NCBI RefSeq assembly: GCF_001045435.1
Contig: NZ_LFNG01000004.1
Coordinates: 62,001 to 126,000 of the forward strand
DNA: 64,000 nucleotides
Reading direction: 5' to 3'
Source: Chryseobacterium koreense CCUG 49689
GTDB taxonomy: Bacteria > Bacteroidota > Bacteroidia > Flavobacteriales > Weeksellaceae
Positions within the stretch are counted from its first letter, which is position 1; each line of letters begins with the position of its first letter. A program made the position numbers and the translations under genes. Below, one piece after another: positions 4,594 through 5,721 of this stretch. The notes beneath the pieces are model-generated. The model made no database searches. It saw only the letters and a list, made by a program, of their open reading frames with translations, and was not told where the DNA came from.

Positions 4594-4623
4594 TTGGCAG
4601 AAATAAAAAAGTTTTTATATTTG
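4594..4623 (+). promoter_or_regulatory. Promoter of the tRNA-Asn locus
   Basis: TTG (4594-4596), a 19-bp spacer and TATATTTG (4616-4623) match the Bacteroidota -33/-7 consensus. Transcription would begin just before the pseudo-tRNA and continue through the intact tRNA-Asn. Confidence 0.7.
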
Positions 4624-4648
4624 CACACGCTAAAAGCGAAGGCAAAAT

Positions 4649-4702
4649 TCCTCCTTAGCTCAGTCGGTTAGAGTCCCGAAACTTCGGGATTAATCAGAGG
4701 GT
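4649..4702 (+). pseudogene. 5'-half pseudo-tRNA-Asn carrying a palindrome
   Basis: Bases 4649-4673 are identical to the first 25 nt of the intact tRNA-Asn at 4732. The next tRNA bases (the 5' anticodon stem and part of the loop) are replaced by the palindrome TCCCGAAACTTCGGGA (4674-4689). The tRNA sequence resumes for 13 nt (4690-4702) and then diverges before the T arm. It cannot fold as a tRNA and has no acceptor 3' strand. The palindrome is the exact reverse complement of the one in the T-arm position of the downstream remnants. Confidence 0.85.
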
Positions 4703-4731
4703 AAAGTGAGAGGTTGAAATAAAAAGAATAT

Positions 4732-4805
4732 TCCTCCTTAGCTCAGTCGGTTAGAGCATCTGACTGTTAATCAGAGGGTCCTTGGTTCGAGCCCAAGAGG
4801 AGGAG
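4732..4805 (+). tRNA. tRNA-Asn(GTT)
   Basis: A complete cloverleaf: acceptor TCCTCCT (4732-4738) pairs with AGGAGGA (4798-4804), D stem GCTC/GAGC, anticodon stem TCTGA/TCAGA with loop CTGTTAA (anticodon GTT, 4766-4768), T stem CTTGG/CCAAG with loop TTCGAGC, and G as discriminator. CCA is not encoded. A strong terminator follows after 3 bp. Confidence 0.97.
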
Positions 4806-4808
4806 CAA

Positions 4809-4837
4809 AACCATCAGAGAAATCTGGTGGTTTTTTT
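4809..4837 (+). terminator. tRNA-Asn terminator
   Basis: The stem AACCATCAGA/TCTGGTGGTT (one G-U pair) has loop GAAA and T7. The same structure recurs at 5194-5222 and 5579-5612 as part of the tandem repeat. Confidence 0.9.
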
Positions 4838-4840
4838 GTT

Positions 4841-5149
4841 ATGAAATACTTCATTTACATATTGTTTTCGGAGTCTTCAATGATTTATTATGTCGGTTAT
4901 ACCACCGATGTTTCAAATCGCTTTGTGCAGCACAACGAAATTTCCTTGAATTCATTTACGTCGAAACACCGGCCGTGGAAATTGGTGGCAGCTTTTGAAG
5001 TGTTGGGAGACGAATCCGAAGCGATGAGGATTGAGAGATTCATAAAGAAGCAGAAATCATCGAAATTTATCGAGAAGATCATTGATTCGAATACTGAATT
5101 AACCGGAGTTTTGTCGAAGTTGGTTAGAGTCCCGAGTATTCGGGATTAA
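4841..5149 (+). CDS. GIY-YIG nuclease family protein, copy 1
   Basis: 102 residues with the GIY-YIG core: YIL at residues 6-8, YVGYTT at 17-22, Arg27 in NRFVQH and a Glu in the helix EAMRIERFIKK. Family members are small single-strand or branched-DNA endonucleases, and the short YhbQ-like forms have no settled role. The ATG lies only 3 bp after the T tract of the tRNA terminator and has no recognisable ribosome site, so expression is unclear. The last codons (KLVRVPSIRD) are read from the pseudo-tRNA and its palindrome. The copy at 5226 differs by one residue. Confidence 0.8.
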   Translation: MKYFIYILFSESSMIYYVGYTTDVSNRFVQHNEISLNSFTSKHRPWKLVAAFEVLGDESEAMRIERFIKKQKSSKFIEKIIDSNTELTGVLSKLVRVPSIRD

Positions 5150-5190
5150 TCAGAGGGTCTCCCGAAGTTTCGGGACTCCAAGAGGAGGAG
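5119..5190 (+). pseudogene. Pseudo-tRNA-Asn remnant with two palindromes, copy 1
   Basis: Bases 5119-5129 match the tRNA D arm. TCCCGAGTATTCGGGA (5130-5145) stands where the 5' anticodon arm should be. The tRNA-identical block TTAATCAGAGGGTC follows (5146-5159), then TCCCGAAGTTTCGGGA (5160-5175) in place of the T stem and loop, then the tRNA 3' end CCAAG-AGGAGGA-G (5178-5190). The 5' acceptor strand is missing, so it cannot be a functional tRNA. It overlaps the 3' end of the GIY-YIG gene. Confidence 0.85.
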
Positions 5191-5225
5191 CAAAACCATC
5201 AGAGAAATCTGGTGGTTTTTTTGTT

Positions 5226-5534
5226 ATGAAATACTTCATTTACATTTTGTTTTCGGAGTCTTCAATGATTTATTATGTCGGTTATACCACCGATGTTTCA
5301 AATCGCTTTGTGCAACACAACGAAATTTCCGTGAATTCATTTACGTCGAAACACCGGCCGTGGAAATTGGTGGCAGCTTTTGAAGTGTTGGGAGACGAAT
5401 CCGAAGCGATGAGGATTGAGAGATTCATAAAGAAGCAGAAATCATCGAAATTTATCGAGAAGATTATTGATTCGAATACTGAATTAACCGGAGTTTTGTC
5501 GAAGTTGGTTAGAGTCCCGAGTATTCGGGATTAA
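5226..5534 (+). CDS. GIY-YIG nuclease family protein, copy 2
   Basis: Tandem duplicate of the gene at 4841, with all the same core residues and Val instead of Leu at residue 36. Three further base changes are silent, a pattern compatible with selection on the protein but too few to prove it. Upstream it has the second copy of the tRNA terminator, and at its 3' end it again reads into a pseudo-tRNA. There is no recognisable ribosome binding site. Confidence 0.8.
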   Translation: MKYFIYILFSESSMIYYVGYTTDVSNRFVQHNEISVNSFTSKHRPWKLVAAFEVLGDESEAMRIERFIKKQKSSKFIEKIIDSNTELTGVLSKLVRVPSIRD

Positions 5535-5575
5535 TCAGAGGGTCTCCCGAAGTTTCGGGACTCCAAGAGGAGGAG
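5504..5575 (+). pseudogene. Pseudo-tRNA-Asn remnant with two palindromes, copy 2
   Basis: Identical to the remnant at 5119-5190, 385 bp further on. The palindromes are at 5515-5530 and 5545-5560, and the tRNA 3' end at 5563-5575. The third copy of the hairpin terminator follows (5579-5612). Confidence 0.85.
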
Positions 5576-5721
5576 CAAAACCATCAGAGAAATCTGGTGG
5601 TTTTTTTTTTTTGTTTTTATTCCTAATATGAAGAAATGTGCTGATTTGCAGAAAAGATTTATTGTTCCACGAAATCTTTTTATATTTATGACTTCGATTT
5701 CAAACCATTTAAATCTAAAAG

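Follow-up and report, generated by a model that had tools for sequence, protein, structure and literature searches.

Organization of the tRNA-Asn Locus

The DNA under study, hereafter the window, is a stretch of 64,000 nt from Chryseobacterium koreense CCUG 49689 (contig NZ_LFNG01000004.1, positions 62,001 to 126,000), and the sole tRNA gene that ARAGORN finds in it, a tRNA-Asn(GTT), is surrounded by broken copies of itself and by two genes for short GIY-YIG nucleases (table 1). This array belongs to what looks like an undescribed family of selfish elements, here called cassettes, which recurs across Bacteroidota with a version for each tRNA kind. The layout proposed by the first-pass annotation, in which the intact tRNA is followed by units of terminator, GIY-YIG gene and pseudo-tRNA, with a third terminator closing the array and a tRNA 5' half with a palindrome preceding it, is borne out by the sequence, ARAGORN and the profile PF01541. 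The same annotation spoke of two exact 385-bp units: there are indeed two, each of 385 bp (4793-5177 and 5178-5562), but they are identical at 381 of 385 positions, the mismatches falling at 4861/5246, 4930/5315, 4946/5331 and 5080/5465. Each comprises the tRNA-Asn 3' end with its terminator, a 102-aa GIY-YIG open reading frame (ORF) and a pseudo-tRNA-Asn; the third copy of the tRNA 3' end and terminator lies at 5563-5612, and a 29-nt spacer follows the pseudo-tRNA 5' half (4649-4702). The palindromes lie in the tRNA remnants, as had been noticed, but they are not mere additions to them: in all three pseudo-tRNA-Asn copies a 16-nt palindrome replaces tRNA nt 26-35, and in the right-hand two part of the T-arm is replaced as well.

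The GIY-YIG gene and an opposite-strand ORF of 61 aa lying within it are the only ORFs of at least 50 aa in the 385-bp unit, which holds no integrase or recombinase gene. A leader like that before the array sits directly before the intact tRNA in genome G005 and in empty loci (genomes and loci are cited by our G and L numbers), and its motif TATATTTGC is taken here as the Bacteroidota promoter type. The source genome is a draft of 64 contigs, and the copy number of two could be off; arrays of such nuclease genes are also present in single-contig assemblies (G012, G264, G387), so that arrays as such are no assembly artefact. At an E-value of 1e-3 the window protein has one further match in its own genome, behind a tRNA-Arg(TCG); downstream of this gene lies another version of the tRNA, which carries a 20-nt palindrome as an insertion after nt 31.

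Table 1. Features of the cassette array in the window
Feature	Position	Strand	Basis
Probable promoter and leader of the tRNA-Asn transcription unit; TATATTTGC at 4616-4624	4610..4648	+	Sequence
Left unit, pseudo-tRNA 5' half and 29-nt spacer: tRNA nt 1-25 (4649-4673), palindrome TCCCGAAACTTCGGGA (4674-4689), tRNA nt 36-48 (4690-4702)	4649..4731	+	Sequence; palindrome pattern search
Intact tRNA-Asn(GTT)	4732..4806	+	ARAGORN
Intrinsic terminator, copy 1	4807..4838	+	Hairpin and T run
GIY-YIG nuclease gene, copy 1, 102 aa	4841..5149	+	PF01541 (E 2.7e-15); alignment; AlphaFold2; ratio of nonsynonymous to synonymous substitution rates (dN/dS)
Right pseudo-tRNA, copy 1, overlapping the end of ORF 1: D-arm, palindrome (5130-5145) replacing tRNA nt 26-35, TTAATCAGAGGGT, T-arm palindrome (5160-5175), tRNA 3' end (5178-5191)	5118..5191	+	Sequence comparison
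Terminator, copy 2	5192..5223	+	Sequence comparison
GIY-YIG nuclease gene, copy 2, 102 aa	5226..5534	+	PF01541 (E 9.4e-16)
Right pseudo-tRNA, copy 2, overlapping the end of ORF 2: palindromes 5515-5530 and 5545-5560	5503..5576	+	
Terminator, copy 3, end of array	5577..5612	+	Sequence comparison

The GIY-YIG Protein

Both window ORFs match PF01541, with 56.8 and 58.3 bits against a curated cutoff of 22.6, while the NCBIfam model for group I intron endonucleases, TIGR01453, gives 15.8 bits and stays under its cutoff of 56.05. Residues Y6, Y17, R27, H31 and E65 are invariant across the 33 aligned proteins, and we take Y6, Y17, R27 and E65 to be the catalytic Tyr, Arg and Glu of the GIY-YIG motif. 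The proteins are mostly about 79-102 aa long. The AlphaFold2 model of the window protein has a mean predicted local distance difference test score of 90.3. Its C-terminal residues, LVRVPSIRD, are encoded by the pseudo-tRNA (window 5118-5149) and are modelled as a short helix and a strand (block means 91 and 84; last two residues 42), with LVRVP invariant in the six aligned Asn-type proteins. The nuclease gene is under purifying selection: dN/dS is 0.17 between the window protein and that of G005 (80 codons), and 0.06-0.35 in 9 of 11 pairs, the other two being saturated. The nearest solved relatives by sequence are UPF0213 and SLX1, the latter working in branched-DNA processing according to the titles of its structure entries, and Foldseek on the model adds HIGLE to these two at E below 1e-3; the catalytic domain of I-TevI appears only at E 0.55 and above.

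Filled and Empty tRNA Sites

Which of the tRNA copies at such a locus is the one of the host? The clearest view comes from the Ser-Pro-Arg tRNA cluster, where G035 has a plain tRNA-Arg(TCT), that is an empty site, and G011 a filled one. In G011 the order is a pseudo-5' half with palindrome, a spacer, an intact tRNA-Arg, a terminator different from that of G035, the GIY-YIG gene, a pseudo-tRNA with palindrome and finally a terminator of the G035 type. The sequence upstream of the G035 tRNA-Arg continues in G011 upstream of the pseudo-5' half (60/60 nt; 148/152 columns over 150 nt), and the 40 nt after the G035 tRNA agree at 34/40 positions with the tail of the 3' pseudo-tRNA of G011, against 28/45 columns with the tail of its intact tRNA. 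The latter tail (TTTAAAAAGACTGAG..) is nearest to the native tails of G016, G026 and G033 (31-32 of 37 columns) and less like those of G030 (28/37) and six others (20-24 of 39-42). These junctions lead us to infer that the cassette brought the working tRNA and that the pieces are what is left of the host tRNA. In filled loci the broken host tRNA is without its anticodon arm, and the intact tRNA alongside is identical to that of the empty site (G011 versus G035). Horizontal transfer is suggested by one feature only, the exchanged terminator.

At the same tRNA-Arg site, G035 and others are empty and G011, G019 and G032 are filled; G019 follows the G011-type plan, G032 is without the host-side tail, and the locus of G027 stops short of the intact tRNA, being filled in the part reached. 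The tRNA-Asn locus of the window also has the G011-type plan, but its two terminators are alike and the exchange is therefore unreadable there; by comparison with tRNA-Arg, its intact tRNA-Asn would be the replacement tRNA brought by the cassette. Loci with and without cassette, whose comparison had been proposed beforehand for tRNA-Asn, thus exist at two sites, the tRNA-Arg one, where the junctions could be compared, and the rseP-tRNA-Asn one. A survey of the latter covered 30 of the 36 genomes of the genus: three of the 30 fetched loci are filled by a 400-nt test, in addition to G030, in which an insert precedes the cassette. The genus thus shows patchy occupancy. The insert of G030 (L043:900-2380) is transposase-like, apparently on the reverse strand, and sits between the tRNA-Asn and the first GIY-YIG gene.

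Distribution and Linkage to tRNA Genes

Matches to the window protein at E 1e-3 occur in 47 of 100 related genomes, and our census counts 135 matched places, all having been fetched except G004:C3:422104. With a same-strand tRNA within 250 nt upstream taken as linkage, and another copy within 600 nt upstream as array membership, 39 places are tRNA-linked, 37 belong to arrays and 59 are neither. The spacing to the tRNA is 33-61 nt in 32 of the 39 linked places. Seven of the 96 census loci (L098, L099, L104, L105, L132, L136, L150) lie outside the count, having no tblastn hit at E 0.01; each has a GIY-YIG ORF by profile search and no tRNA within 250 nt upstream of it, and all seven therefore rank as unlinked. 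The linked tRNAs are of many kinds (Met, Asp, two Arg, Asn, two Val, Phe, Ser, Ala, Pro and His, a single Gln call being a pseudo-tRNA), and behind most of the linked genes lies a damaged copy of the tRNA in question, its anticodon arm carrying a palindrome. A GC-rich perfect hairpin lies 3' of the gene in 34/39 linked, 31/37 array and 14/59 unlinked places, against 7-12% in mononucleotide shuffles, the GC filter missing some palindromes. By manual reading, 11 of the 14 hairpin-bearing unlinked places carry a palindrome of a linked type, and in these the tRNA is further off (L035, L043, L055), lies beyond the contig end (L030, L057, L106, L116) or is unrecognised (L029, L036, L046, L053); the remaining three, L040, L047 and L139, do not fit. 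An Rfam scan of 55 of the 56 loci holding places of the neither type found tRNAs only in L019, L029, L035, L047, L055, L118 and L147, together with a tmRNA in L141 and an Acido-Lenti-1 RNA in L039. The idea that every short GIY-YIG protein goes with a tRNA was rejected, given the 59 of 135 census places that are neither linked nor in arrays, many of them in a clade of their own: the tRNA link is a property of this family, and more distant GIY-YIG subfamilies lack it.

Beyond these genomes, the 24 best-scoring loci of the phylum outside those already studied, a set which leans to linked types and a few members of which have a genus in common with the first set, include 16 with a tRNA within 260 nt upstream; all 16 have a GC-rich hairpin behind at least one gene copy, one or two of which may be plain terminators. 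The family profile matches 238 of 395 sampled Bacteroidota genomes at E 1e-12, a figure that includes matches unchecked for tRNA and possibly unlinked subfamilies. A query of the Asn type gave 79 named loci, from Chryseobacterium, Pedobacter, Chitinophagaceae, Cyclobacteriaceae, Bacteroidales and others. Rather than occurring equally often away from tRNA remnants, an outcome that the first-pass annotation had set against its own proposal, these homologues concentrate at one tRNA: within 300 nt upstream there is a tRNA-Asn(GTT) in 57, a tRNA-His in one and no tRNA in ten, while 11 start too near the contig end. A perfect hairpin with an arm of at least 6 is present in 70 of the 79. The phage search with the window protein returned six records, all from Listeria phages and below 60% identity; carriage by phages or plasmids was rejected on the basis of these and three plasmid records, which are likewise below 60% identity, the names involved being Listeria and Legionella.

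Palindromes in the Anticodon Arm

The palindrome pattern TCCCGANNNNTCGGGA, with at most one mismatch, has five sites in the window, all at this locus; shuffles would lead one to expect 0.13. Exact matches across the genome number nine, five of them at this locus, and the backward-read control pattern has none. Pattern matches are found in 27 of 36 genomes of the genus, mostly 1-7 times and at most 15 times, in G030. A genome-wide scatter of the palindrome was rejected, for just four of the nine sites lie outside the locus and palindromes track the tRNA kind across genera. One outside site in the genome of the window (L010:1501-1516, C6:198600) falls inside an apparent 23S rRNA gene and is perhaps natural loop variation; in G030, one palindrome lies within the loop of the tRNA terminator, behind the pseudo-tRNA (L043:3357-3372).

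The position of the palindrome within the anticodon arm is typical for the tRNA kind. When the right flank is required between nt 30 and 56, placement is possible in 68 of 97 linked loci: Asn palindromes start after nt 25 in 39/44 cases and end before nt 36 in 39/44, all seven of Asp lie after nt 38 and before nt 51, and those of Val follow nt 28 in 3/4 and precede nt 46 in 3/4; two Asn (43/52) and one Arg placement lie further 3'. In 63 of 79 placed pseudo-tRNAs, at least 14 of the final 15 nt match those of the tRNA, so that direct repeats are formed. Left units are present in 29 of 93 linked loci, with up to six copies at one locus. Five tRNA-Arg(TCT) loci have a left unit; its palindrome is TTCCGAT..ATCGGAA in all five, and that on the right is TCCCGATT..AATCGGGA in four. 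A Bacteroidales metagenome-assembled genome (L203:700-1290) has a tandem array of at least six pseudo-tRNA-Asn 5' halves about 77 bp apart, in a stretch that partly reads N, with the palindrome TCCCGAAACTTCGGGA in each half and the intact tRNA-Asn following the array.

Across genera, palindrome similarity is 0.851 within tRNA kinds (86 pairs) versus 0.643 between them (597 pairs), a difference reached by none of 1000 shuffles; the test used 40 palindrome arms entered by hand, with loci lacking a clear palindrome excluded. For the Asn type, 56 of the 79 named loci have the two anchors used and 54 of the 56 a 16-mer, making 29 distinct 16-mers. In these, 94.6% of 203 cells are paired, against 85.3% in shuffles, and the covariation score is 0.247 against 0.076, with none of 500 shuffles as high in either respect; double-changed cells number 20, against 7.0 in shuffles, which ignore the relatedness among sequences. 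The sixth pair, for instance, is AT in 11, CG in 11, TA in five and other in two. The palindromes, therefore, vary and yet stay complementary, which amounts to upkeep. Since the palindrome is in frame and the encoded residues change along with it, we take the nucleic acid to be what is kept. Is it kept as DNA or as RNA? The seventh pair, which would leave an RNA loop of 2 nt, is paired in 25/29, and some palindromes have no loop at all (TCCGCCG/CGGCGGA, TCCCGATAG/CTATCGGGA); this symmetry near the centre argues, though not conclusively, for a role at the DNA level.

Protein Lineages and tRNA Kind

On a tree of the 35 linked leaders (linked rows only, one per locus and tRNA kind, rows below 70 aa being excluded from all trees), the 13 tRNA kinds require 12 changes, as few as there can be, while 500 shuffles give a mean of 25.3 and a minimum of 22. 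Host genus on the same tree changes 16 times, against 16.7 in shuffles, 139 of 500 of which are as low. With tRNA kind so far below the shuffles and genus at chance, the protein follows the tRNA and not the host. A larger tree, in which Met is not split, again gives 12 changes, one above the minimum for 12 labels, but its resolution is poor, with 41 of 112 inner branches open; 39 of its unlinked rows form one clade, the other unlinked rows lying elsewhere. Judged from these trees, the lineages appear to be specific for their tRNA kind.

A Proposed Break-and-Replace Cassette

The best account of these observations, to which we assign a probability of roughly 0.55, is that of a homing-like cassette dedicated to one tRNA gene, which breaks and replaces its target and spreads by recombination. 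The first-pass annotation had already thought of a selfish or homing-type cassette with the tRNA as its target, and the tracking of tRNA kind by lineage agrees with this; the tRNA, however, is no mere neighbour, for at tRNA-Arg the host copy is left in pieces and the intact one appears to be that of the cassette. According to this account, Bacteroidota would carry very small selfish cassettes, each lineage of which keeps to a single kind of tRNA gene. Its short GIY-YIG protein would cut the cognate tRNA gene in or near the anticodon arm, and repair from a filled copy, with recombination through the tRNA halves, would leave remains of the broken host tRNA on either side of the cassette, a palindrome taking the place of the anticodon arm, and would install an intact tRNA copy with its own terminator before the nuclease gene. 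Insertion would be non-lethal because the tRNA is replaced. The replacement presumably keeps the target sequence, whereby the locus may be broken and repaired again out of register, adding right units (terminator, nuclease, pseudo-tRNA) and left units (5' half, palindrome, spacer). The architecture, the filled and empty junctions at one tRNA-Arg locus, the tRNA-following lineages, the upkeep of the palindromes and the purifying selection are what we observe; cleavage, the place of the cut and repair-driven spread and growth are deduced.

Several points weigh against this account. Chief among them, no feature that would shield the replacement tRNA against the nuclease can be seen: the intact tRNA of G011 being the same as the tRNA of the empty site in G035, the filled locus is not visibly protected, unlike classical homing sites. 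This may be the reason for array growth, or a sign that the cut site is elsewhere. The decisive pair of filled and empty sites is a single locus in one genus, with a host-side tail match of 34/40. A simple form of growth by nested re-insertion, which predicts equal numbers of left and right units, was rejected because the counts do not match. The left unit is present in just those 29 of 93 linked loci, and elsewhere must be assumed lost, decayed or beyond the search. In L056 an intact tRNA-Val(gac) lies behind each nuclease gene, with a tRNA-Val(tac)-like copy between, and L058, L093, L096 and L120 have little or no recognisable tRNA remnant by alignment score. The nearest solved relatives of the protein, UPF0213 and the structure-specific SLX1, are not sequence-specific homing enzymes. 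Two of the five covariation measures are less telling, for pairs with a change on both sides number 3 versus 1.5 in shuffles (24 of 500 as high) and further pair types 7 versus 6.1 (144 of 500 as high). The tree of 35 leaders has 14 of its 32 inner forks open, 18 of 35 rows from one genus and two long decayed rows, and it depends on two labels set by hand, namely the split of Met into initiator-like and elongator-like from the remnants, and the reading of a tRNA-Gln call in G039 as a Met pseudo-tRNA.

The palindromes could alternatively be transposon-like ends, with an Slx1/UPF0213-like nuclease that cuts hairpins or cruciforms and a cassette that moves from the palindrome to the natural anticodon-arm hairpin of a tRNA, the latter being both target and cargo. 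This would suit the closest solved folds (SLX1, HIGLE, UPF0213), the symmetry that extends up to the seventh pair, the flanking of the cassette by two palindromes at some loci, and the near constancy of left and right palindromes in the five tRNA-Arg(TCT) loci. We nevertheless regard it as unlikely: both palindromes are embedded in tRNA sequence and leave no clean ends, the lineages seldom change tRNA kind, although a free transposon would be expected to do so, and the palindrome is rare elsewhere in the genome of the window (four other sites). A different role for the same sequences is that of decoys, palindrome-armed pseudo-tRNAs kept by host or cassette, and multiplied on the left in certain species, to bind the nuclease, occupy it and protect the working tRNA. 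Left arrays of up to six near-identical pseudo-5' halves, the longest partly N, and palindromes shared within a tRNA kind, as expected of a binding site, are in keeping with decoys, whose binding of the nuclease is putative. We give them little credence because the right-hand pseudo-tRNAs physically belong to each nuclease unit.

It seems very improbable that the palindrome-armed pseudo-tRNA acts as a structured RNA, regulatory or guide-like, made together with the nuclease, so that selection would bear on a hairpin rather than on a DNA palindrome. The pairs do covary, the pseudo-tRNA overlaps the end of the ORF, and pseudo-tRNA folds are more stable than shuffles (z -3.07 and -2.60 for the window pieces and -1.74 for G011, against -0.96 for the intact tRNA); but loopless palindromes exist, G-U cells are rare (2/203), though departures are too few to decide, and the fold of the right-hand window copy pairs its two palindromes with one another and shows no cloverleaf, an idea that was accordingly rejected. 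Counting G-U pairs to separate RNA from DNA was dropped for the same paucity of departures. An old tandem duplication of the tRNA with a resident nuclease gene, followed by decay of the tRNA copies and involving no mobility whatsoever, we find extremely hard to credit. Unequal crossing-over does leave tandem units with decayed tRNA copies, and the tree by tRNA kind would also fit long vertical descent at each tRNA. Decay, however, does not set a palindrome at a fixed place of the anticodon arm in many tRNA kinds, nor keep it complementary, nor place the host terminator behind the broken copy and another behind the intact tRNA; moreover, occupancy within the genus is patchy.

Relation to Known Systems

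Elements that integrate into tRNA genes take the gene as attachment site and duplicate or restore its 3' end, the host tRNA staying functional; the cassette differs in its 385-bp unit with the GIY-YIG ORF as the only sizeable gene, in keeping both halves of the broken tRNA with palindromes and in supplying, as it seems, an intact tRNA and not just a 3' end. Introns of tRNA genes typically insert in the anticodon region, and the GIY-YIG homing endonucleases of group I introns (I-TevI type) have the family of their catalytic domain in common with the cassette; no intron is recognised here, however, and the pseudo-tRNA pieces keep palindromes and overlap, with an intact copy alongside. In REP/RAYT systems and other bacterial palindromic elements, a nuclease gene is tied to short palindromes; the enzyme of the cassette is of a different family, and five of the nine palindrome sites in the genome are at this one locus. 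The unlinked GIY-YIG subfamilies of these genomes mostly form a separate clade (39 rows). Synthetic cleave-and-rescue gene drives break an essential gene and carry a working copy of it; the cassette, by contrast, is natural, and its rescue tRNA is not recoded (intact tRNA of G011 equal to that of G035).

The closest likeness in behaviour is SegB of phage T6 and relatives, a free-standing GIY-YIG homing endonuclease that adjoins tRNA genes, cuts within them and drives tandem amplification of the tRNA-segB segment by homologous recombination (PMC13096335). Its cut motif is given as RAWTSGAAC (PMC13096335). The protein is phage-encoded, whereas those of the cassettes lie in bacterial genomes. Moreover, SegB co-localises with many tRNA kinds in phages with no apparent isotype preference, and the description consulted includes neither palindrome-armed pseudo-tRNAs nor a replacement tRNA before the gene nor a lineage for each tRNA kind (PMC13096335). 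We read RAWTSGAAC as the complement of the T-arm consensus. A full-text literature search, with most subscription papers and bioRxiv beyond its reach, found no description of the cassette family.

It is possible, and we put it forward tentatively, at somewhat less than even odds, that such natural break-and-replace elements extend through the phylum, each lineage destroying one essential tRNA gene in the anticodon arm, supplying a working copy and leaving in the ruined gene a palindrome that the nuclease recognises as an end, a signal or a decoy. If so, ordinary tRNA genes of Bacteroidota would host self-spreading elements that rank among the smallest known, with a separate version fitted to each tRNA kind, and cells would survive their insertion into an essential gene because the replacement is built in. 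Such elements would spread selfishly in a way unlike that of introns, integrases, transposases or known homing genes, and would be a natural counterpart of break-and-rescue gene drives. They would also provide a system for studying the origin of tRNA gene arrays and pseudo-tRNAs, with a palindrome-protein pair that can be tested in vitro.

Pseudo-tRNAs in Automated Annotation

Some pseudo-tRNAs are misread by ARAGORN, which calls a tRNA-SeC(tca) beside the tRNA-Val in L031 and L059 and a tRNA-Gln(ttg) in L048; such calls are a source of false tRNA annotation.

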